A DNA stretch of 45,749 nucleotides from Chthonomonadaceae bacterium. GTDB taxonomy: Bacteria > Armatimonadota > Chthonomonadetes > Chthonomonadales > Chthonomonadaceae. The DNA lies in the NCBI GenBank assembly GCA_027450145.1, contig DAIDKH010000033.1:1-45749 (forward strand). The letters are read 5' to 3'. The translations under genes and the position numbers were made by a program. Numbering within the stretch: position 1 is the first letter of the stretch; each line of letters opens with the position of its first letter. The notes under the pieces were generated by a model that had not been told where the DNA came from, did not search any database, and was given only the letters and a program-made list of their open reading frames with translations. Positions 30,441 to 45,749 of this stretch are shown piece by piece.

Positions 30441-31463
30441 ATGCGTATTGCACTAGTAGGTGCAGGCGGCATGGCATCCATGCACGCGGAGTGCTATTCC
30501 GCCATACCTAATGCAACACTTTGCGGTGTGATGGATATACGGCACGATGCGGCGGCGTCATTAGCTGGACGTCATGGAGCCACTCCCTATTCGGATTTCG
30601 ATAGGATGCTCAACGATCTACGCCCAGATGTAGTGGATGTATGCTGTCCAACACCCTGGCATGTAGATTACGTAGTTGCGGCCGCGGCTCGCGCACATGA
30701 GTTGGGAATACGAGGTATTTCAACCGAAAAACCAATGGCGCGTACGCTCGCAGACTGCCAACGCATGATCAGTGCAGTTGAAGCAGCAGGTATACCGCTC
30801 TTTGTAGCCCACGTTGTTCGGTTCTTCCCGGAATTCAAGCTGGCCACCCAGCAAGTGCAACACGGTGCAGTTGGAAAAATCGCATCGGTGCGAACACGCA
30901 GGGGCGGTCCAATGCCACTCGCATGGAATAACTGGTACGCAGACTTTAGCAAAAGTGGCGGCTGTGTCCTAGACCTTATCATTCACGATTTCGATTGGTT
31001 GCGGTGGACATTTGGCCCAGTCCAACGCGTATTTGCTTGCGGATTACAGCATCACGACGGAATGCAGAAGGATTATGCCTTGGTTACCCTGCGATTTGTC
31101 AGCGGGGTCATAGGACACGTTGAAGGAACGTGGAGCGATCCCGGTGGCTTTAAGGTAACCATTGAGGTTGCCGGCGACGGTGGGCTTCTTGAATACAATG
31201 CCAATCAACCCACTGGGTCACCACTTCGCATAGCCATGGCTTCAACTGAAAATAGTGGCGGTGGCGTAGCGGTACCAGAAAGCCCCACAGGCGCTAATCC
31301 CTATCAACTGGAGTTGCAGCATTTTCTCGATTGTTTAGAAGCTGGAATTACACCGTCCATCACACCATACGATGGAATGGAAGCCGTTCGAATCGCCCTT
31401 GCGGCGATCGAGTCCGTTGAAACAGGGCAGCCTGTAATACTTGACGGTGACAAGCCTCAATGA
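30441..31463 (+). CDS. Gfo/Idh/MocA family oxidoreductase
   Basis: A 340-residue NAD(P)-dependent sugar oxidoreductase. Rossmann start RIALVGAGGMASMHAECY, the STEKPMARTLADC motif with its conserved EKP lysine, and the C-terminal-domain GGCVLDLIIHDFDWLRWTFG carrying the typical Asp-x-x-x-His. Probable reaction: oxidation or reduction of a sugar, inositol or sugar acid. The ATG has AAGGAG 8 bases upstream; a TTG two codons earlier is less likely. The end overlaps the glycoside hydrolase-like gene by ATGA. Confidence 0.92.
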   Translation: MRIALVGAGGMASMHAECYSAIPNATLCGVMDIRHDAAASLAGRHGATPYSDFDRMLNDLRPDVVDVCCPTPWHVDYVVAAAARAHELGIRGISTEKPMARTLADCQRMISAVEAAGIPLFVAHVVRFFPEFKLATQQVQHGAVGKIASVRTRRGGPMPLAWNNWYADFSKSGGCVLDLIIHDFDWLRWTFGPVQRVFACGLQHHDGMQKDYALVTLRFVSGVIGHVEGTWSDPGGFKVTIEVAGDGGLLEYNANQPTGSPLRIAMASTENSGGGVAVPESPTGANPYQLELQHFLDCLEAGITPSITPYDGMEAVRIALAAIESVETGQPVILDGDKPQ

Positions 31464-33604
31464 AATTGCACGCACATTGTGCTGCAATCTTACTGATGAT
31501 CGCCAAAATTGCGTCGGCGTCACCCCTTCTGCACATCACAACAGATCGCACGGTGATTCCGGTCGGTACATCCGTGGTCGTATCCGTTCATGTGACCAAC
31601 CTAAATTACCCGCGATCAGCTTATAGGGTTTATCCACTGGTTAATGGTCACATCTGGGGCAGCGGCACGGTGACGGATACGTTTGGGCGCGGTGCTTTTA
31701 GTTTACCGATACCTTGGTTAGGCAACGTGCAGGTAAGTGGATATGCAATACCTGTTGGTTCGGGTAACCGGGCACATTGGGTGTGGGTGGGATCACCACA
31801 TGCTAACCAGACCGTCTATATCGCCAAGCGATTCATACTGCGCAAACGGCCACGTAATGCCTCCATGCTTATTACCTGTGATGACAGTGGAACTGTGTGG
31901 ATCAATGGTCGAAGAGTTATAAATAAGACCAACTCGCTATTCAACGTATCACACATCAATGCTGCCTCCTATCTCTCTTTAGGGACAAACACCATCGCGA
32001 TCTCAGCCCACAATGATGTTGGCCCCGCAGGTGTGCTTGCAGAGCTCAAGATTAACAGCTCGAAAATTGCGGTAACTGATAATCAATGGATTGGCTGGCT
32101 TTCCAAACCGATCGGGTGGCCGCTTCCGCACTTCACCGGTGCGAATAGGGTTATATCCGAGGCAGCTGTAGGTCACGGAATTTGGGCAAACGGCATTAAC
32201 GGTTGGCCAGGCATACAGCCTGCATTTTACGTGGGAAGCGTTGCCCCCGCCAATGTAATTCACGCGAACTCTGTTGCCGTTCGAACGACACAGTTAGACC
32301 ACTCAGTTTCGAAGGCAACTGACCTTCATAAGCTTATCGTAATGGATTGGGAGCCATGGTTCACAGTACAAAATGCTACATGGAACACAGCGGAGGCCAT
32401 ACCCATTATCGGACAGTATGCCTCGGATAACGCCGAGGTTATTCGCCAGCATCTTCTATGGCTTCATTACATTGGTGTGAACGCAATGATGGTGGATTGG
32501 TCCAATAACCTGAATTCGCAGCCAACGTTCAACCTGTCTGCAGGTGTTAAACAGATTGTACATGCCACGGATACCCTGTTTAGAGTGGCAACCCTAATGA
32601 GAAAGCAGGGTTACCACGTGCCCAGGATCTTTTTCCTACTCGGCGTCAACGGTCTGGCTGACAATACGACGGCAGAGAACAAACAGATACAATTTATTCG
32701 TCGGCGGTACTTAAGTTCTCGCATATTCGGTCAGGATTATTGCACCTATCGTGGACGGCCCCTCGTAGTTATCCTGAACGGGCACGGTCCCGCATATCAA
32801 GCCAGCCAAAAACCATTGGATGACACCGGCCTTACCGTTCGATGGATGTGGACACAGGACCAACAGGTGCATTATAACCGTGTAGGATATTGGTCGTGGA
32901 TGGACGGCTGTCTTAATCCGCTAATTACGTACCTTGGCGGTTCACCAGAGGCAATGACGATAACACCGGCATTCTTTGCCCCCGAAGGATGGACTAAGCC
33001 TGGTACATATGGTCGCCTCAACGGGTGGACGTATGTTACTCAATGGGCCAATGCGGTAGCAATCAAACCGGCGGTACTACTAATTAACCAGTGGAATGAA
33101 TTCGCCGGTCAGGGTGTTGGCGACGGTTATGGGGCAAACCACGATCGATATGTAGACACATATAGCAGGGAATTGTCCGACGATATCGAACCTACCTCAC
33201 TTCACCTACCTGGAATACGAAGCAATGGCGGCTGGGGGTACCAGTATCTCAACCTCACCCGTGCAGGAATACGGATTTTAACGGGGGCTGACAGATCGAG
33301 CACGGTCATGGCAGTTCGCCCGCCTTCGATCAAAACTACCGCGAAAAACGCTACAATTGCGGTCGCTTGGTTTGGCCGTCGTCCATCTATGCTGCTGGTT
33401 TTTCTTGACAAACGAAGAATTGCCCGCGTTGCATGTGAACACCAGTTTAAGGTAAAGATTCCCCATCTGGCCCCCGGAAGGCACACCCTAACGATTTTGG
33501 CACCAGGTCGCTTTACCGAATATCCCCTCTTTCGAAGCCGCGAAGACCAGCCACTCTCTGCAGCCGTACCGGCTAAAGCCACGGTAACGTTCATTGCAAA
33601 ATAG
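31460..33604 (+). CDS. secreted GH99/GH71-like glycoside hydrolase with beta-sandwich domain
   Basis: A 714-residue protein with a signal peptide (residues 1-21). Residues about 125-210 form a jelly-roll-like module (ITCDDSGTVWINGRRV; LSLGTNTIAISAHND) resembling the CBM67/rhamnosidase N-terminal fold. From about 290 comes a TIM-barrel with VMDWEPWFTVQ, WLHYIGVNAMMVDWSN and VLLINQWNEFAGQG, matching the WNE-type pattern of GH99/GH71/WbsX-like enzymes; the Glu of WNE is a candidate catalytic residue. The C-terminal 100 residues look beta-rich. Acts outside the cytoplasm on an unknown polysaccharide. Co-translated with the oxidoreductase upstream. Confidence 0.78.
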   Translation: MKLHAHCAAILLMIAKIASASPLLHITTDRTVIPVGTSVVVSVHVTNLNYPRSAYRVYPLVNGHIWGSGTVTDTFGRGAFSLPIPWLGNVQVSGYAIPVGSGNRAHWVWVGSPHANQTVYIAKRFILRKRPRNASMLITCDDSGTVWINGRRVINKTNSLFNVSHINAASYLSLGTNTIAISAHNDVGPAGVLAELKINSSKIAVTDNQWIGWLSKPIGWPLPHFTGANRVISEAAVGHGIWANGINGWPGIQPAFYVGSVAPANVIHANSVAVRTTQLDHSVSKATDLHKLIVMDWEPWFTVQNATWNTAEAIPIIGQYASDNAEVIRQHLLWLHYIGVNAMMVDWSNNLNSQPTFNLSAGVKQIVHATDTLFRVATLMRKQGYHVPRIFFLLGVNGLADNTTAENKQIQFIRRRYLSSRIFGQDYCTYRGRPLVVILNGHGPAYQASQKPLDDTGLTVRWMWTQDQQVHYNRVGYWSWMDGCLNPLITYLGGSPEAMTITPAFFAPEGWTKPGTYGRLNGWTYVTQWANAVAIKPAVLLINQWNEFAGQGVGDGYGANHDRYVDTYSRELSDDIEPTSLHLPGIRSNGGWGYQYLNLTRAGIRILTGADRSSTVMAVRPPSIKTTAKNATIAVAWFGRRPSMLLVFLDKRRIARVACEHQFKVKIPHLAPGRHTLTILAPGRFTEYPLFRSREDQPLSAAVPAKATVTFIAK

Positions 33605-33610
33605 CGATTG

Positions 33611-36067
33611 CTAGTCGTCCGCGAGCACTGCAACTGCAACAAGTACCAGTTCCAATGGTACTTCATGTTCGATAGTTGCGACAGAAGTCCAAAATTCCTC
33701 GTCCTCAGTTTTTGCGTCAATCCTGCTCAGTTGAATTAGGTGGTGAATCGTGGCCCTAAAATCGCCCGATGTGTAGGCCTGAATTGCGTGACGCACCGAA
33801 ACGGTAGAGCCGGGACGGGCCTTTCCTGCCTCTTTTATCATTTTCACCACAATTGCATCACGATCCATATCTGCGGCGGAAATTAGCCTGTATGACGACT
33901 CACCGTGTTCTAGAACAGTTCCAAGTGAGTGCGCAATCTGACGACGACTGATAGCTGCGGTTGCGCCGCTTGTTGCAGTTACCAGGAATGGTACAGCCTG
34001 TCGGTCTCCAACTCGTGTCAATGCTGTTGCTGCTGCTGCCGCCATAACCTGGTCATTTCCCGAGGAGTTCAGCATTGAGCGTAGGATCTCGCGGGCTTCC
34101 GGAGCGCCAATCCTCCCAAGAGCCCGTACACACGCAACACAAATAGTGCGATTCTCGCGTGAACGCGCAATCAAATCGGTTAGAACTCCAACGGCTTTTG
34201 GGGAGCGCGTCCGTCCTAACGCGTCAGCTATATCCTCCTGCAAACCAGAGTCGGAAGTGCTATTGAGTTGTTCGATCAGCGCTGCTGCAGCATCTTCACC
34301 ACCCAGCGCACCCAGCGCACGAATAATTGCTTGTCGTTCCGCTCGCCTTAGTACTCGCGCTCCATCAGTCAATAACGCGATTAAGTGCGGCACTGCCCGC
34401 CTGTCACCCAGCACCCCGAGTGCCTCCGCCGCCTCAGTTGTAATAGAGGCAGCATCGTCCTGAGCAGCTTGCAGTAGCGGCTCGAGCGCAAGGCGATTGC
34501 CGATGTTGCCCAGTGCACGTGCCGCCTGTTCACGCACCTCAAGACTAGGGTCTTGCAATGCATTCACCAATTCACCCAGAGCAAGCGTTGTGGGCGACTC
34601 CGCAAGGGCCTCGGCCGCTCGAAGGCGCTGTGTCTGTTCAGAAGGCTTTTGAAGTTTGCGAATATGTCCCCAGTTGCGCGGTTTTGCCTGGCCAAGTTGC
34701 CTTATCACATCGCCGGCTGACTGAGCACCTACATCCTGAACTCCTGAGAGTAGCGGTATGGACACCAATCGCAAAATAGTGGTGAGAATAAATAGCACCT
34801 GGTAATTACCGATATCAATCCCGTGGATCATTATATGAAGCCCGGACATAAGGTGCATGAGATAACCGCCAACCAGAGGCGCAATTCCTGCCAGAAGGCC
34901 CGTCACAGCCGACATTGTAGCAACGTACACGGAGGTATTTTCGGGACTGCTGCAGCCAATGAGCAGATTAAATTGAGCTAATCCAACGACAGCCCAGAAA
35001 ATCCCGCTGCCAACGTTAATTTCCAGCAACCAGGCCGCCATTACTGCATTGTTACCGCGAACCGTAAATATCCATGAGATAGGGAGCGTGAGCACGCCCC
35101 ATGTGCCGATAGCAAGCAGCGGCTTGTTACCAAATTTATCCGCAAGGTAGCCCCAAAATGGCATGGAAACGAGTGCCGAAACGCCGGTGATAGCCGCAAG
35201 GACTTGCATCCAAAGGTAGTTGAGTTGTAATTCCTTTAGCGCGTAGACGGTGAAGAACGGTGCGGCGAGGTTTTGCCCCACGCCAAAAACGGCGTTAAAC
35301 AGCAATAGACGGCGAAATTTCACATCCGCAAACGGAGCCGCAAAATACGATCGTAGTCCGCGTGAAGAACCTGTATGCGATTCCTGAGCTCTAATACGCG
35401 GCGGTTCCGGTTGCAGCCATACCATGACACCGGAGACAATTCCTCCTATGACGCCCGTGCCGAAAAGGAACGCAAATCCAACAAAGCGCCATCCTGGCGT
35501 CTTTACGGCTTGATCTAATAATAGGGCTGCCGGTAACGAGATTACCATTCCTGTAATACCCGCAACCATATTCCGGTAACCAAAGTACCTACCGCGGTAG
35601 CCCACCGGAACAAGATCAGACATCCATGAACTCCACGCGGGCATTGGAATACTCGTAAGAACACTGGACGCCGTGAATAACAACAGAAAAATCGTTAGCG
35701 CTAAATTAAGTGGAAAAATAAATGGAAGTAAAAGAATAGGTAACCACAAAAGCCTTCCTGCCAGTGAGTAAATAACAATAAAGGGACGGCGTTGAGGTAG
35801 TGACTCCGTGGTATACGACGACAGCAGCTGAACCAAAGCTGCCAGTGTAGGTACCGCCGTTAATAGACCGATTGCAACGCTATCTGCACCCAGCCAAAGG
35901 GCAAATCCTGTTATAAAGGCACCGGAGGTAAGAGTGATCCATATGGTGGCAAATGCCCCATCCCAAACAGAAAAGCGCAGCCCTCGTATAACGTCGAGCC
36001 TGCTCAACGGTGCTGTGACTGATTGCGACGTTGGTGTGTCGCGCTGTCTTCGTGTTCCGATACGCAT
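33611..36067 (-). CDS. MFS transporter fused to HEAT repeats
   Basis: An 818-residue fusion. Residues about 30-440 are a 12-helix major facilitator (YRGRYFGYRNMVAGITGM; WGYLADKFGNKPLL; FWAVVGLAQFNLL). Residues about 470-720 hold about seven HEAT/PBS-lyase-type repeats, for example DPSLEVREQAARALGNIG, EAAEALGVLGDRRAVPHL and ACVRALGRIGAPEAREIL. A further 90 residues end the protein. The repeats would lie in the cytoplasm and may bind a protein partner or regulate transport. Transported solute unknown. Convergent with the glycoside hydrolase-like gene and divergent from the peroxiredoxin gene. Confidence 0.88.
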   Translation of the reverse strand: MRIGTRRQRDTPTSQSVTAPLSRLDVIRGLRFSVWDGAFATIWITLTSGAFITGFALWLGADSVAIGLLTAVPTLAALVQLLSSYTTESLPQRRPFIVIYSLAGRLLWLPILLLPFIFPLNLALTIFLLLFTASSVLTSIPMPAWSSWMSDLVPVGYRGRYFGYRNMVAGITGMVISLPAALLLDQAVKTPGWRFVGFAFLFGTGVIGGIVSGVMVWLQPEPPRIRAQESHTGSSRGLRSYFAAPFADVKFRRLLLFNAVFGVGQNLAAPFFTVYALKELQLNYLWMQVLAAITGVSALVSMPFWGYLADKFGNKPLLAIGTWGVLTLPISWIFTVRGNNAVMAAWLLEINVGSGIFWAVVGLAQFNLLIGCSSPENTSVYVATMSAVTGLLAGIAPLVGGYLMHLMSGLHIMIHGIDIGNYQVLFILTTILRLVSIPLLSGVQDVGAQSAGDVIRQLGQAKPRNWGHIRKLQKPSEQTQRLRAAEALAESPTTLALGELVNALQDPSLEVREQAARALGNIGNRLALEPLLQAAQDDAASITTEAAEALGVLGDRRAVPHLIALLTDGARVLRRAERQAIIRALGALGGEDAAAALIEQLNSTSDSGLQEDIADALGRTRSPKAVGVLTDLIARSRENRTICVACVRALGRIGAPEAREILRSMLNSSGNDQVMAAAAATALTRVGDRQAVPFLVTATSGATAAISRRQIAHSLGTVLEHGESSYRLISAADMDRDAIVVKMIKEAGKARPGSTVSVRHAIQAYTSGDFRATIHHLIQLSRIDAKTEDEEFWTSVATIEHEVPLELVLVAVAVLADD

Positions 36068-38808: not shown

Positions 38809-38833
38809 CTGCCCGTAGATTGCGACCTCAATT

Positions 38834-38905
38834 GGGCGGTTGGCTCAGTGGTAGAGCACTTCGTTCACACCGAAGGGGTCGGGGGTTCGAATCCCTCACC
38901 GCCCA
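38834..38905 (+). tRNA. tRNA-Val (anticodon CAC)
   Basis: A full cloverleaf: acceptor GGGCGGT/ACCGCCC, D-arm GCTC/GAGC, anticodon stem CTTCG/CGAAG with loop TTCACAC (anticodon CAC, valine GUG), T-arm GGGGG-TTCGAAT-CCCTC with one G-T pair, and discriminator A at 38905. The 3' CCA is not encoded. It stands alone between the LysR gene and a ThuA gene, with its own promoter. Confidence 0.95.
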
Positions 38906-39121
38906 TTGCTTCCATTATTGGCACGACTTACTTCGCGTTAATCGTGCTGCCACGATTAGAATGTAATCTAAGTACCTCGATTCCTTACGGAGCCGACCTG
39001 TCCACCTCGCCAGCAATACGGCAGTAACATTAGCAACTCGTCCTCTCACCCAAATCAACACTTTCAACTTTTGAATTTGCCGAGACTGCTGTCCGTTTCC
39101 TGATAATTTTCTCAGGTTTAG

Positions 39122-41190: not shown

Positions 41191-42567
41191 CTATGCAGCC
41201 AGGCGCCCATTCTGATAGCTATACTCATCGGTAACGCGTGCCATTGCAGCTGCCGTAATACTATTCGATGACATACCGTCCTGTGGATAGATAGCCGCAC
41301 CGAAGTACCACTCTATTCGAGCTCCATTGTTTGCGGTACGAATGTGTTTGAGTTCCTCTGGAAGCGTACTCTTCAGCCTGTCCACCACAATTTTTACGTG
41401 TTCACCCGTATATGGCAGTATCATGGCGAGATGATCGTTTGAGTACCTCGTAAGTATATCACTGCGGCGCACATTGTCGCGAATTACTTTCACCGTTGTT
41501 CTGAGTATTTCATCCGATTTTAGCGTACCAGAGGAGGCGGTATAGGCTGCCAGCCCCGAAATGTGTATGAACATTACCGCAACATTGGTCTCCAACCGGC
41601 CAGCGCGCAGCATCTCCTCTTCCAACCGCTGCCCAAAATATCCCTTCGTATAGAGGCGAGTGAGTTCGTCAACCAGGGCCTCACTATGAAAATCCGGGGT
41701 GAGCAGTCCTTTTTTACGCAATCCACTAAGCTGAGCCTGCGCATCCTTGAGTTCTTCCGTATTCAGGATTTTGCGCATCTTCTTAGCCGAATTTCTTAGG
41801 ATATGAGATACGTAATTGCAGGAGATGCCTAACTTTGCAGCAATTTCTGTCTGGTTACGATCCTGGAAGTAGAATTCCGAGATCACCTGCTGTTCCAAAG
41901 GCTTCAGATTGTCGATTGCGGCTTCAAGTACAAGACGCTCGTCTAATGGTACTTCAAAGCTGGTAACAAAATCGCGCGAAGTTTGCCTCTCAAGATCGAT
42001 CGCGCCATTGTTGTCGTCGTCCTGATCTTGGCCACCATCCATCGAGGTAACCTTGAATACCTCCCGATTGGTTACCACCTCGGCGACCGCGTCCTCAGTC
42101 ATGCCCATTGCTGCGGCAATCTCGCTCTGCGTTGGCTGGCGCTGCAAATCTTGGGCTAGCTGCTCTGTACGTCGCACTATTCGCTGATTAAGCTCTTGAA
42201 GCCATGCCGGCTCCTTAATGATCTTGCCACGATCGCGTAGATAGTGCTTAATCTGCCCAATTACAAAGTGTGTCGCATATGTCGAAAATTTCACATTTTT
42301 ACTAATGTCATAAAGTTCGATTGCGGTGATGAGTCCAATGTAACCTTCCTGCGCCAAGTCATCTGCTGGTTCACCACACGTGGCATACCGTCGTGCGATA
42401 CTTTCGACCAGGGCAGTAAACTGCGCTACAATGCGGTCGCGGTATAAATTGTCCTTACTTTCCCGATAGGACATCAGAAGCTGCAGGACATCCTCTTCTG
42501 AACGACGACCGGGCATAGATGCCTTGTCCTCAGAGCCGTTTATCGGATTTTGATAGCCTGTCGCCAT
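41191..42567 (-). CDS. sigma-70-family factor fused to a degenerate GGDEF domain
   Basis: A 458-residue fusion. Residues about 48-118 are sigma region 2 (VESIARRYATCGEPADDLAQEGYIGL; FSTYATHFVIGQIKHYLRDR), 123-195 region 3, 213-268 region 4 with helix-turn-helix NQTEIAAKLGISCNYVSHILR: a group-3 type (SigB/SigF/WhiG-like) factor. A linker leads to a GGDEF-like domain at 296-448 (LVDELTRLYTKGYFGQRLEEEM). The GGDEF motif is replaced by SNDHL in TRYSNDHLAMILP and the upstream metal Asp pair by HIS, so it should be catalytically inactive. ATG has AGGAA 4-5 bases upstream; a GTG seven codons earlier is possible. Confidence 0.92.
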   Translation of the reverse strand: MATGYQNPINGSEDKASMPGRRSEEDVLQLLMSYRESKDNLYRDRIVAQFTALVESIARRYATCGEPADDLAQEGYIGLITAIELYDISKNVKFSTYATHFVIGQIKHYLRDRGKIIKEPAWLQELNQRIVRRTEQLAQDLQRQPTQSEIAAAMGMTEDAVAEVVTNREVFKVTSMDGGQDQDDDNNGAIDLERQTSRDFVTSFEVPLDERLVLEAAIDNLKPLEQQVISEFYFQDRNQTEIAAKLGISCNYVSHILRNSAKKMRKILNTEELKDAQAQLSGLRKKGLLTPDFHSEALVDELTRLYTKGYFGQRLEEEMLRAGRLETNVAVMFIHISGLAAYTASSGTLKSDEILRTTVKVIRDNVRRSDILTRYSNDHLAMILPYTGEHVKIVVDRLKSTLPEELKHIRTANNGARIEWYFGAAIYPQDGMSSNSITAAAMARVTDEYSYQNGRLAA

Positions 42568-42740
42568 ATATTTCCTGTTCAACTGCACGTCGTTCCCATC
42601 GTACGCGAGCAGATGATTCTATCCTTTTAAGAAGTCGTTGTACAGTCCGGTAAAAATGAACGGTTTGATTATTGACTGAAAATGACCATTCCTGTAGTTA
42701 TACTAGCCCCTGAAAAAGATACGGTGATTTTAGCAGGCGA

Positions 42741-44432
42741 CTATTCAAGCATTTTGAAGCGATCGCTCAAGGGGTCATTTTGCAGGTCTTCAGACCGTGC
42801 AAACCGTTCCGAAAACTCAAAATACCGACGTGCTTTTCGGTTGTCTGGATCTAATTGTAAAACTTTTGCAAATTGGAATTTGGCCTTGTCATAGTTCCCT
42901 GCCTCGTATTCCTTAAGGCCGAGATTGTACTCTTGCTGCAAAGACACAATCCTTATTTTGGCGGATCGTTCCTCTGTAGGGGCAAGGCTCTGAGCGAGAT
43001 GCAATGCAGCCAGGCCGGCCTCGAGGTCGTCTTCTTCTAGCAATTTTGAGGCAGCTTCGTCCGCTTGGTGTATCTGGCGCGCGAGGATAGCTGCCAACAG
43101 TTCACACGCTTCGACGTTTTCATCCCAAACCTGAATGGATTCCCTTAACATCCTTTGAGCGAGTGGAGGATCGGACTCCGCGAGCTGCTCGGCCTGCTTT
43201 GCTAACGAAATGGACGATTGGATGGTAAGTGATCTCTCATGTTCTAATAATTCTGTATTTAAGGGCGCAACCAATCTTGCTGCCTTAACCACGCTAATGG
43301 CCGAGTTAAAATCACCGGAACCTACGAAGGTATTCGCCTGGTCAACTACTGCCTGACCCAGTTGTAGACGGGCTACACCAAGGTATCTGGCAGCTCGAGG
43401 GTCCTGCGGGCTATTACGGCATAACTCACTAAGAAGGGTACAGGCATCTAACCACTTATGCTCGCTCAGTAAAGCAATTGCTTCGTCAAATTGATCCGTG
43501 GGCGGAGTGGCAATGTCGCCCACTTTGTCGCGCGTAATACCGTAGACCGACAGCACGCTATTACGTTGGGAGAGTGCAAGCGCACATCCGTTTGGACTGA
43601 AGCTGATACCCGTGACCGTCTCCAAAACAGGAAACGTGCCGCACTCCACTCCGCGTTCGTCTACCAGGTAAACCGACATGGATGCATCGCCGGTTTGCAA
43701 CACTGCAGCGGTTAATCCTGACGATAAGGATGAGGTTATCAGACGAACGCTTCCCTCAAAGCCGACTTCCCATTTTCGGGTGCCAAAAGAATCAATCGCA
43801 GCGATGCTACCAGAGTTAGTGCCAAAGGCCACCATTTGAGCATCCGGTGAGCACCAGAGGGCAGTAACCATGTCGTCTGCTCGAAATCGCCAAAGCTCAC
43901 GAGCTCCAGCGTCCTGACACGTGATGGTGCCCTCATCTCCCGCAGCCACGACTGCTCGACCGCCGGAAGACGTAGCGATAACGCAGGGGGCATAATCGAC
44001 GTCTTCGACCCAAATGACCGTACCATCGATATTCGTCAAAAACACGGTAAAATTCTCACCGCCGAGATCGCTGTAAACTCCCGCGGCCCTGGTGCCAGTT
44101 TCGTCCATTTCAACGTCAACGGCGAGATAGTACTTATTTGGAAAAAGACGTAATTTGCTATTGCCGTGAAACGAGTAAAAATCATCGCCGGTCATACCAA
44201 CGCACACGTTCGTGCGGTAAGAGGTAGATAACTTTTGCAGCGTTTCGACAGTGAATTCAGCTATGGAATTTACCGAGGCGTCCGCAAACACAACCTCCAG
44301 GTCATAGGTGCGGGCCTCGAGTGGCTTTGGGGCGAGGATTACCAGCGAACCGTCATCACTCAGGCTGTAACGGGCGATAGCGTATGCGCCCCGGTGACGC
44401 CGTTCCCACAGCAGTTTCGTCCGAAGGGGCAT
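42741..44432 (-). CDS. beta-propeller plus TPR-like protein, third gene of an AAA+/NHL operon
   Basis: A 563-residue protein with no signal peptide. Residues about 1-310 contain WD40/PQQ-like blades (YSLSDDGSLVILAP; VEMDETGTRAAGVY; LWCSPDAQMVAFGTNSGSIAAID; GISFSPNGCALALSQ). Residues about 320-550 are helical with TPR-like units, the clearest being YNLGLKEYEAGNYDKAKFQFAKVLQLDPDN. The last residues, DPLSDRFKMLE, echo the N-terminus of the next upstream protein (MSDRFDFLE). It starts 4 bases after the NHL gene. Looks like a cytoplasmic scaffold or sensor; function not known. Confidence 0.75.
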   Translation of the reverse strand: MPLRTKLLWERRHRGAYAIARYSLSDDGSLVILAPKPLEARTYDLEVVFADASVNSIAEFTVETLQKLSTSYRTNVCVGMTGDDFYSFHGNSKLRLFPNKYYLAVDVEMDETGTRAAGVYSDLGGENFTVFLTNIDGTVIWVEDVDYAPCVIATSSGGRAVVAAGDEGTITCQDAGARELWRFRADDMVTALWCSPDAQMVAFGTNSGSIAAIDSFGTRKWEVGFEGSVRLITSSLSSGLTAAVLQTGDASMSVYLVDERGVECGTFPVLETVTGISFSPNGCALALSQRNSVLSVYGITRDKVGDIATPPTDQFDEAIALLSEHKWLDACTLLSELCRNSPQDPRAARYLGVARLQLGQAVVDQANTFVGSGDFNSAISVVKAARLVAPLNTELLEHERSLTIQSSISLAKQAEQLAESDPPLAQRMLRESIQVWDENVEACELLAAILARQIHQADEAASKLLEEDDLEAGLAALHLAQSLAPTEERSAKIRIVSLQQEYNLGLKEYEAGNYDKAKFQFAKVLQLDPDNRKARRYFEFSERFARSEDLQNDPLSDRFKMLE

Positions 44433-44436
44433 TTAT

Positions 44437-45348
44437 TTATTCCCATGCAAACCGAAGAATTCGATGGTTTAAGGTATCGCTAATATAGATCTCCCCTTTT
44501 GGTCCGATTGCGACTCCAGAGGGTTGATTAAGAGGGCCAAGCTTCTTGGAGGGCAACTCTACTGCGGCGAGTGACTGACCCTCACTTGAAAATACATGTA
44601 ATCTACCAGCATCTTGTTCGGTAACGTACACTCTACCTAGTCGATCGATAGCCACCTGTTGTGGTGCGTGCAACCGTCGTAACTCTCCAAGCGCACGCAG
44701 TCGCTGTCCAAAAAAGGTGTAACGTGTAACATCCTTTGTTGTTCCGTCGGTTACGTACACGTTTTTCAAATGGTCGCAGGCCACCGCAATTGGACGGACT
44801 ATTCCCATGGATCGGTCTAAGCCACCCATCAGAATGCCGGTACTTTCGTCCACGCGGACCACCCGTTCAGCCAATGCGTCTGCTATCCAAAGGGCGCCTT
44901 CGCTGTCGATAGCGACACTGTTAGGCGCTCGACATACAGTGTTTAGGAGTTGCGAAGAACCACTAATACGATATGCAAGTATTCGGTGGTTTCCATAGTC
45001 CACAGCGAAAAATCGCTGCCCCGTAGGCTCCACGGCCACCGATGTAGGGCCAAGCATCTGACCTTTCCCGCTTCCGGCACCACCAAATACCTGTACTTCG
45101 CCGTTTAGTAGGATTCGCTGGATCCTATGGTTGCCTGTATCTGCAACGTATAGCGTGCCGTCATTGTCAACCGAAAGCCCGGTGGGTCCGTTGAACTGCC
45201 CTACTTCATTGCCGGGTTCTCCAATAACTTCTACGGCTCGCAGCGTACCAAATGCGTTGTTGTCGGGTACACCTTCAGCGGAGGCCTCTATCTTTGCGGC
45301 GGGAACAGGACCATCGTCTAACTCAAGAAAATCGAATCGATCGCTCAT
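44437..45348 (-). CDS. NHL-repeat six-bladed propeller protein
   Basis: A 303-residue protein with six NHL repeats from about residue 45 on, each in the form GPTGLSVDNDGTLYVADTGNHRIQRI; later ones include CRAPNSVAIDSEGALWIAD and NQPSGVAIGPKGEIYISD. There is no signal peptide, although many bacterial NHL proteins are exported. The N-terminus MSDRFDFLELDDG is acidic and resembles the C-terminus of the downstream protein. Its ATG overlaps the AAA+ gene stop by 4 bases (ATGA). Probably a protein-interaction platform for the ATPase (inference). Confidence 0.82.
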   Translation of the reverse strand: MSDRFDFLELDDGPVPAAKIEASAEGVPDNNAFGTLRAVEVIGEPGNEVGQFNGPTGLSVDNDGTLYVADTGNHRIQRILLNGEVQVFGGAGSGKGQMLGPTSVAVEPTGQRFFAVDYGNHRILAYRISGSSQLLNTVCRAPNSVAIDSEGALWIADALAERVVRVDESTGILMGGLDRSMGIVRPIAVACDHLKNVYVTDGTTKDVTRYTFFGQRLRALGELRRLHAPQQVAIDRLGRVYVTEQDAGRLHVFSSEGQSLAAVELPSKKLGPLNQPSGVAIGPKGEIYISDTLNHRILRFAWE

Positions 45349-45749
45349 TCGACAACAGCTTCCATCCCGGAGTGACTATCAGCTGGTTCGGCGACCTCCG
45401 GCGATGGAACATCCACCACCTTATTCCTCACTGATTTTACAACCAGAAGCTTCTCCGTTATGGTCTGCATGTCCTCGCTTAGCTCGCTAGACGCCATGCG
45501 CGCTCGGGTGTTCGCCCAGTCGCGCAACTCCTCAATTCGTTCCCGCATTGTTACCGACAAGGGGACGGTATGGTGCGCAGCCGCTATGAGGGAGTCCGTA
45601 TTCATCTCGCACGTCTCATCAAACGCGTCGTATAGGGCTTCGACTACCACAGCCTCAATTTCGGCGCCGGAAAATCCTGGGGTAGCATCTGCAAGCCTAG
45701 CTAGATCGAAATCTGCTACCTTTCGCTGACGTTTGGCAAGATGAATGGC
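45345..45749 (-). CDS. AAA+ ATPase, C-terminal part (cut by window edge)
   Basis: The last 134 codons of a gene that continues beyond the window. Visible are the end of the AAA+ lid (FDLARLADATPGFSGAEIEAVVVEALYDAF) and a C-terminal VPLSVTMRERIEELRDWANTRARMAS, a pattern seen in Ycf46-like/SpoVK-type AAA ATPases. Walker motifs lie outside the window. A tail rich in Pro, Glu and Val follows. The stop is coupled to the NHL gene by ATGA. Confidence 0.82.
   Translation of the reverse strand, partial: AIHLAKRQRKVADFDLARLADATPGFSGAEIEAVVVEALYDAFDETCEMNTDSLIAAAHHTVPLSVTMRERIEELRDWANTRARMASSELSEDMQTITEKLLVVKSVRNKVVDVPSPEVAEPADSHSGMEAVVE

Follow-up and report, generated by a model that had tools for sequence, protein, structure and literature searches.

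Sigma factors are usually controlled by separate anti-sigma proteins, by proteolysis or at the level of transcription. Among other regulators, CtrA carries an Ala-Ala C terminus. Proteolysis of CtrA by ClpXP is linked to PopA of Caulobacter, which, like PelD of Pseudomonas, has a dead GGDEF active site and keeps the RxxD motif of the I-site as a receptor (PMC10333796, PMC12564702). In Streptomyces, the developmental sigma factor sigmaWhiG, together with RsiG, is under the control of a c-di-GMP dimer, and the inactive GGDEF domain of RmdB binds the sigma factor (PMC13232838). Cyanobacterial SigF, a group 3 sigma factor, directly controls pilA1-pilA2 and pilus motility in Synechocystis (PMC7690835). 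The orphan ECF sigma factor sigmaAntA of Streptomyces, which has no anti-sigma factor, ends in Ala-Ala in 67 of 71 orthologues, and its degradation by ClpXP requires this ending (PMC7142297). Dead GGDEF receptors, control of a sigma factor by c-di-GMP (so far through an anti-sigma protein), pilus sigma factors and Ala-Ala sigma degrons are each already known singly. Here we analyse a gene of a Chthonomonadaceae bacterium (Armatimonadota), contained in a 45,749-nucleotide stretch of contig DAIDKH010000033.1 (assembly GCA_027450145.1; hereafter the window), whose product may combine all four.

Results

The gene occupies positions 41191-42567 and, like all of its features given below, lies on the minus strand. 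It encodes 458 amino acids plus a stop codon, with the ATG at 42567 and a Shine-Dalgarno-like AGGAAA, read from the sequence, just 5' of it at 42571-42576. Pfam domains follow one another in the order Sigma70_r2, Sigma70_r3, Sigma70_r4 and GGDEF, all far above chance. Region 2 (PF04542, 7.4e-18) spans residues 47-115 (42223-42429), with D70, Q73, G75 and G78 invariant; region 3 (PF04539, 1.2e-13) spans residues 125-188 (42004-42195); and region 4, for -35 recognition (PF04545, 6.5e-12), spans residues 217-266 (41770-41919), with a nearly invariant SCNYVSH. All three regions of a sigma-70 factor and its conserved core-binding and -35-binding residues are present. The C-terminal domain (residues 297-441, 41245-41679) passes the Pfam gathering cut-off for GGDEF (PF00990, 3.6e-22; 79.3 bits against 23.8). 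The top NCBIfam model for the sigma part, SigBFG (TIGR02980), scored 177.5 bits, below its curated cut-off of 234.35, so the sigma part is SigB/F/G-like and no formal member; the SigF model NF005644 (1.1e-44) was also among its best matches. The product is best read as an orphan, alternative sigma factor of group-3-like type with a C-terminal pseudo-GGDEF domain, in agreement with the original prediction of a group-3-type sigma factor ending in a GGDEF-like domain. That prediction had also noted that no anti-sigma gene is adjacent, and the gene neighbourhood bears this out: beside the fusion gene there is no anti-sigma gene, and the HATPase_c_2 (RsbW-type) matches of the genome fall only in open reading frames of 344-807 amino acids, with no stand-alone gene of RsbW size found among them. 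Direct control of the sigma factor without an anti-sigma factor is consistent with this neighbourhood.

On the 5' side of the sigma gene, at 42741-45650 (minus strand), lie genes for a beta-propeller/TPR protein and an NHL-repeat protein and one further open reading frame; homologues preserve this order in L038, L039 and L043. Rfam searches over the window returned tRNA only, with no RNA element or riboswitch near the fusion gene; a tRNA-Val (cac) is located at 38833-38906 (plus strand). The window also encodes an 818-amino-acid protein of unusual make-up, in which many HEAT/PBS-lyase repeats form a long C-terminal extension of an MFS transporter domain (33611-36067, minus strand), and a 714-amino-acid protein with no significant Pfam match (31460-33604, plus strand).

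In an AlphaFold2 model, pLDDT is mostly 92-98 in the pseudo-GGDEF domain, and a long helix (residues 250-285, 41713-41820) extends from region 4 towards it, with pLDDT of about 90 dropping to 61 towards residue 290. The full-length model has a pTM of 0.42 and so does not give the relative arrangement of the domains. Foldseek matched the model to sigma factors and GGDEF domains, the best GGDEF match being 4urs (rmsd 2.8, TM 0.83 by target length), and by this comparison the GGDEF fold is preserved overall.

The original prediction had proposed looking for the same architecture in related genomes, and it proved to be phylum-wide: with presence called from a full-length match at E 1e-100 or better, about 180 of the 291 genomes of Armatimonadota have the fusion, usually as a single copy. 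In a pattern scan all titled group assignments were again Armatimonadota, although a single scan with the window protein as its one query could let distant fusions elsewhere escape. Plasmid records held no homologue covering 80% of the window protein. In a tree of 62 pseudo-domains and 37 canonical GGDEF domains from the window's genome and its relatives, all pseudo-domains formed one clade (support 0.989), apart from the active domains. They thus have a single origin, and the combination of a dead active site with an intact I-site is old and has been kept.

The active site of the pseudo-domain is lost. In place of GG(D/E)EF the window protein reads SNDHL (residues 376-380, 41428-41442), and at the position of the metal Asp, within FIHIS, it has His335 (41563-41565), where all 37 canonical domains of the same genomes have Asp. 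Both losses had been recognised in the original prediction. Homologues with an intact motif, which would have told against it, were looked for in the alignment of 98 distinct members with a GGDEF part from which all residue counts were taken, and GG(D/E)EF occurred in none of them. The window protein thus has neither the loop nor the metal Asp of an active diguanylate cyclase. The metal Asp residues, F, K, N, D, G, H, the GG(D/E)EF loop (its third position counted as D or E) and a late K are each present in 36-37 of the 37 canonical domains; across the fusion family, the catalytic, metal- and GTP-site residues are scrambled.

This comparison bears on the possibility that the pseudo-domain senses GTP or another nucleotide through the remains of its active site. 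GTP is indeed bound by some degenerate GGDEF domains, which regulate a partner domain (PMC10333796), and the overall fold is preserved here. Yet the family shows free variation at the metal Asp, at N, D and K and in the GG(D/E)EF loop, positions that are nearly all invariant in the active cyclases of these genomes, so that nothing in the pocket is under visible selection. A working GTP pocket was rejected on this pattern of residue conservation. We consider nucleotide sensing very improbable, and the nucleotide (GTP) option of the original prediction finds no support.

The I-site has had the opposite fate. In PleD, the allosteric site for c-di-GMP consists of RxxD (R359, D362), R390 and R313, and a second GGDEF domain contributes the Arg that completes such a site (reviewed in PMC7288161). 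The window protein has an intact RxxD (R367-R-S-D370, 41458-41469), which aligns with VRRSD of 4urs and 4urg; R321 (41605-41607) at the position of PleD R313, the Arg given to the partner subunit; and R397 (41377-41379) at the position of PleD R390, the third Arg of the site. The spacing is PleD-like, with 46 residues from R321 to RxxD, as in PleD, and 30 from RxxD to R397 against 31 in PleD, a difference of one alignment gap. Conservation in the pseudo-domain is highest at four columns, D370, R367 and R321 (98/98 each) and R397 (96/98), the last level with P385, E318 and R314. Thermotoga maritima 4urs reads VRRSD as the window protein does, and its sister structure 4urq, titled 'I site mutant', is altered at the residue that corresponds to R367. 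Without R198, or without R242 (of RxxD), mutant WspR is obtained free of nucleotide on purification (PMC2270323). An equivalence of WspR R198 with R321 was considered and dropped, since our alignment and the numbering of that study place R198 at R324 (R in 72 of 98 members); the position of the partner-donated Arg varies between cyclases (PMC8041772).

Because RxxD is usual in active cyclases (32 of the 37 canonical domains have it), its presence alone proves little, and the argument lies in its retention while the rest of the domain erodes. In one and the same alignment, all four I-site residues were found in 61 of 62 family members, compared with 21 of 37 canonical domains. The window domain thereby has the combination of a dead active site and an intact RxxD that marks degenerate receptors of the PopA and PelD type. 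The same pattern speaks against a functionless fusion in which an eroded cyclase domain became attached by chance and is decaying. The pseudo-domain has indeed diverged further than the sigma part (mean pairwise identity 31% against 51%), as decay would have it, but about 180 genomes carry the orthologue as a full-length open frame, and the four I-site residues stand at 98-100%. Neutral decay would not leave the I-site untouched; it is contradicted by this conservation and we regard it as extremely improbable. Two divergent sigma orthologues are natural controls for the role of the domain. L194 (genome G034), from the divergent lineage f7, has lost the Arg of RxxD, which reads QAAD in its eroded domain, and its genome has 22 GGDEF matches; L196 (G053) is a sigma orthologue without any GGDEF domain, in a genome with only two GGDEF genes.

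Loss of the fusion tends to go with loss of the GGDEF network, as judged from gene content in genomes at least 85% complete. As metagenome-assembled genomes are incomplete, gene absence is read within this limit; five genomes in which the match was partial or ambiguous were left out, and counts of GGDEF genes near 12 are lower bounds. Genomes with the fusion (n=161) had a median of seven other GGDEF genes and never zero, against a median of two in those without it (n=73), 13 of which had none. The association with GGDEF-gene presence was significant by Fisher's test (p=1.2e-7) and, to limit the effect of shared descent, by permutation within families (p=5e-5 over 11 mixed families). There are exceptions, in that several GGDEF-rich genomes, for example G025 and G100, have no fusion.

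With GG(D/E)EF in none of 98 members, the I-site as the best-conserved part of the domain and loss alongside GGDEF genes, the pseudo-GGDEF domain very probably binds c-di-GMP; of the nucleotide or c-di-GMP sensor first proposed, it is the c-di-GMP part that is strongly favoured. Dimerisation through the domain, also part of that proposal, is plausible, given that another GGDEF domain supplies one Arg of the I-site.

The main rival to c-di-GMP binding is that the domain serves mainly as a protein-interaction module, for the sigma part itself, RNA polymerase, an anti-sigma factor or another GGDEF protein, with c-di-GMP not being its ligand. There is a precedent in RmdB: acting in trans, its catalytically inactive GGDEF domain binds sigmaWhiG and keeps the anti-sigma factor RsiG away (PMC13232838). 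Moreover, E318, R314 and E317, none of them an I-site ligand, are 94-98% conserved in the family, and canonical domains have R at R314 in only 16 of 37 cases and E at E317 in 9 of 37. An interaction module nonetheless fails to account for the I-site residues being the most conserved of all, or for the loss of the fusion with the GGDEF network, and no anti-sigma candidate was found near the fusion gene. We therefore judge it unlikely.

The protein ends in Leu-Ala-Ala (41194-41202), a candidate ClpXP degron. An Ala-Ala end is found in 75 of the 98 members, against a background of 1.5% (9 of 598 open reading frames) to 2.9% (25 of 853 gene-like ones); four members end in Val-Ala, and the residues before the terminal pair vary. 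The window's genome encodes ClpX and a tmRNA tag of the sequence ANTQQYALAA. Degradation of the fusion sigma by ClpXP through its Ala-Ala end is thus a moderately favoured prediction from sequence. Unexpectedly, Ala-Ala also ends 34 of 83 canonical GGDEF proteins of Armatimonadota (against 2.9%, Fisher p=9e-24 with kinship ignored), and 25 of the 39 with at least 130 further residues after the GGDEF domain; examples are L088, L089, L091, L092, L094 and L097 (window's genome) and several of L218-L257. Being common to so many GGDEF proteins, the ending may be a tag for something other than degradation.

These data also raise the possibility that control is exerted mainly on protein level, by ClpXP and adaptors acting on Ala-Ala, with c-di-GMP only hiding or presenting the degron, as a PopA in cis would. 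The frequency of the ending, the ALAA tag and ClpX of the genome, and the case of sigmaAntA fit such a scheme, as does PopA itself, an RxxD-bearing degenerate GGDEF protein that directs CtrA to ClpXP (PMC12564702, PMC10333796). However, the most divergent members of the family lack Ala-Ala and still have the I-site, so that a degron is not the only purpose of ligand binding. Control mainly of this kind appears rather improbable.

The gene neighbourhoods of relatives indicate what the sigma factor may regulate. In 64 of 95 distinct loci pilC lies directly upstream of the fusion gene on the same strand, usually in the order pilQ-pilB-pilT-pilC-sigma, and in five of the 95 pilT/pilC are divergent from it. 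Both PilB proteins of the cluster that were checked by Pfam (n=2) carry MshEN, a c-di-GMP-binding domain. In Chthonomonadales, including the window, the fusion gene has other neighbours and no pil gene next to it; in the window's genome, pilBTC form a cluster that lies elsewhere and is more distant in sequence. Presence of a type IV pilus was discarded as a discriminating trait, because PilT is near-universal (289 of 291 genomes) and only gene linkage counts. The best reading is an ancestral tie of the fusion sigma to type IV pili, whose genes would have been its original output. From this linkage a pilus regulon is somewhat likelier than not to hold for the family, and less likely for the window's own lineage.

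Discussion

We propose that the fusion protein is an orphan sigma factor gated directly by c-di-GMP through its I-site, with an ancestral type IV pilus output and probable turnover by ClpXP. An intercalated (c-di-GMP)2 dimer would sit in the I-site formed by R367, D370 and R397, and R321 of a second subunit would complete the site. By bridging two subunits, c-di-GMP would bring about dimerisation or a rearrangement of the protein, and the helix leading on from region 4 could relay this change, altering the availability of the sigma part to RNA polymerase. At the Ala-Ala end ClpXP would set the level of the sigma factor, possibly in dependence on c-di-GMP, or else c-di-GMP might alter its delivery to ClpXP. 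That c-di-GMP directly affects the activity or stability of the sigma factor seems fairly likely, and the explanation as a whole we hold to be, on balance, the probable one. As for direction, the analogy with PopA and with sigmaWhiG-RsiG favours inhibition, so that high c-di-GMP may keep the sigma factor off or degraded; the reverse has a somewhat smaller but still substantial chance. Both GTP sensing and mere decay are unlikely beside this proposal.

If true, a c-di-GMP receptor built into a sigma factor would be the shortest path from second messenger to promoter choice, conserved in a barely studied phylum, and would connect c-di-GMP with type IV pilus expression in Armatimonadota in a concrete way that can be tested. 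Chthonomonas calidirosea, a cultured species, belongs to a family in which orthologues are present. If the Ala-Ala ends are degrons, one protease would be tied to the whole c-di-GMP network. More tentatively, and with the odds rather against it, the locus may represent a sigma-70 factor that, as its own c-di-GMP receptor, switches promoter use directly, within an Armatimonadota network of Ala-Ala c-di-GMP proteins (the fusion sigma, cyclases and multi-domain GGDEF proteins) whose levels are set by ClpXP. We found no published description of a sigma-GGDEF fusion in the open-access literature, and could not find there all four features described together in one polypeptide, let alone phylum-wide.

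Compared with described systems, the pseudo-domain shares its fold and I-site residues with the GGDEF domains of WspR, PleD and T. maritima TM1788, but these are diguanylate cyclases with GG(D/E)EF, which none of the 98 members of the fusion family has. SigF, which controls pilins, resembles the sigma part in its group 3 type, whereas the Armatimonadota gene itself lies within the pilB-pilT-pilC cluster in most relatives. To our knowledge, no GGDEF domain is known in SigF. SigmaAntA likewise is an orphan with an Ala-Ala end, but it is of the ECF type, and the accessible part of its description mentions no sensor domain (PMC7142297). In the case of sigmaWhiG, c-di-GMP is bound together with a separate anti-sigma factor and the GGDEF protein acts in trans, while in the Armatimonadota protein the GGDEF domain is fused to the sigma factor, and no anti-sigma factor was found near its gene. 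PopA and PelD are similar in the state of the domain, but PopA acts as a polar protease adaptor and PelD in polysaccharide synthesis; in the Armatimonadota fusion, the output domain, a sigma factor, belongs to the polypeptide itself.
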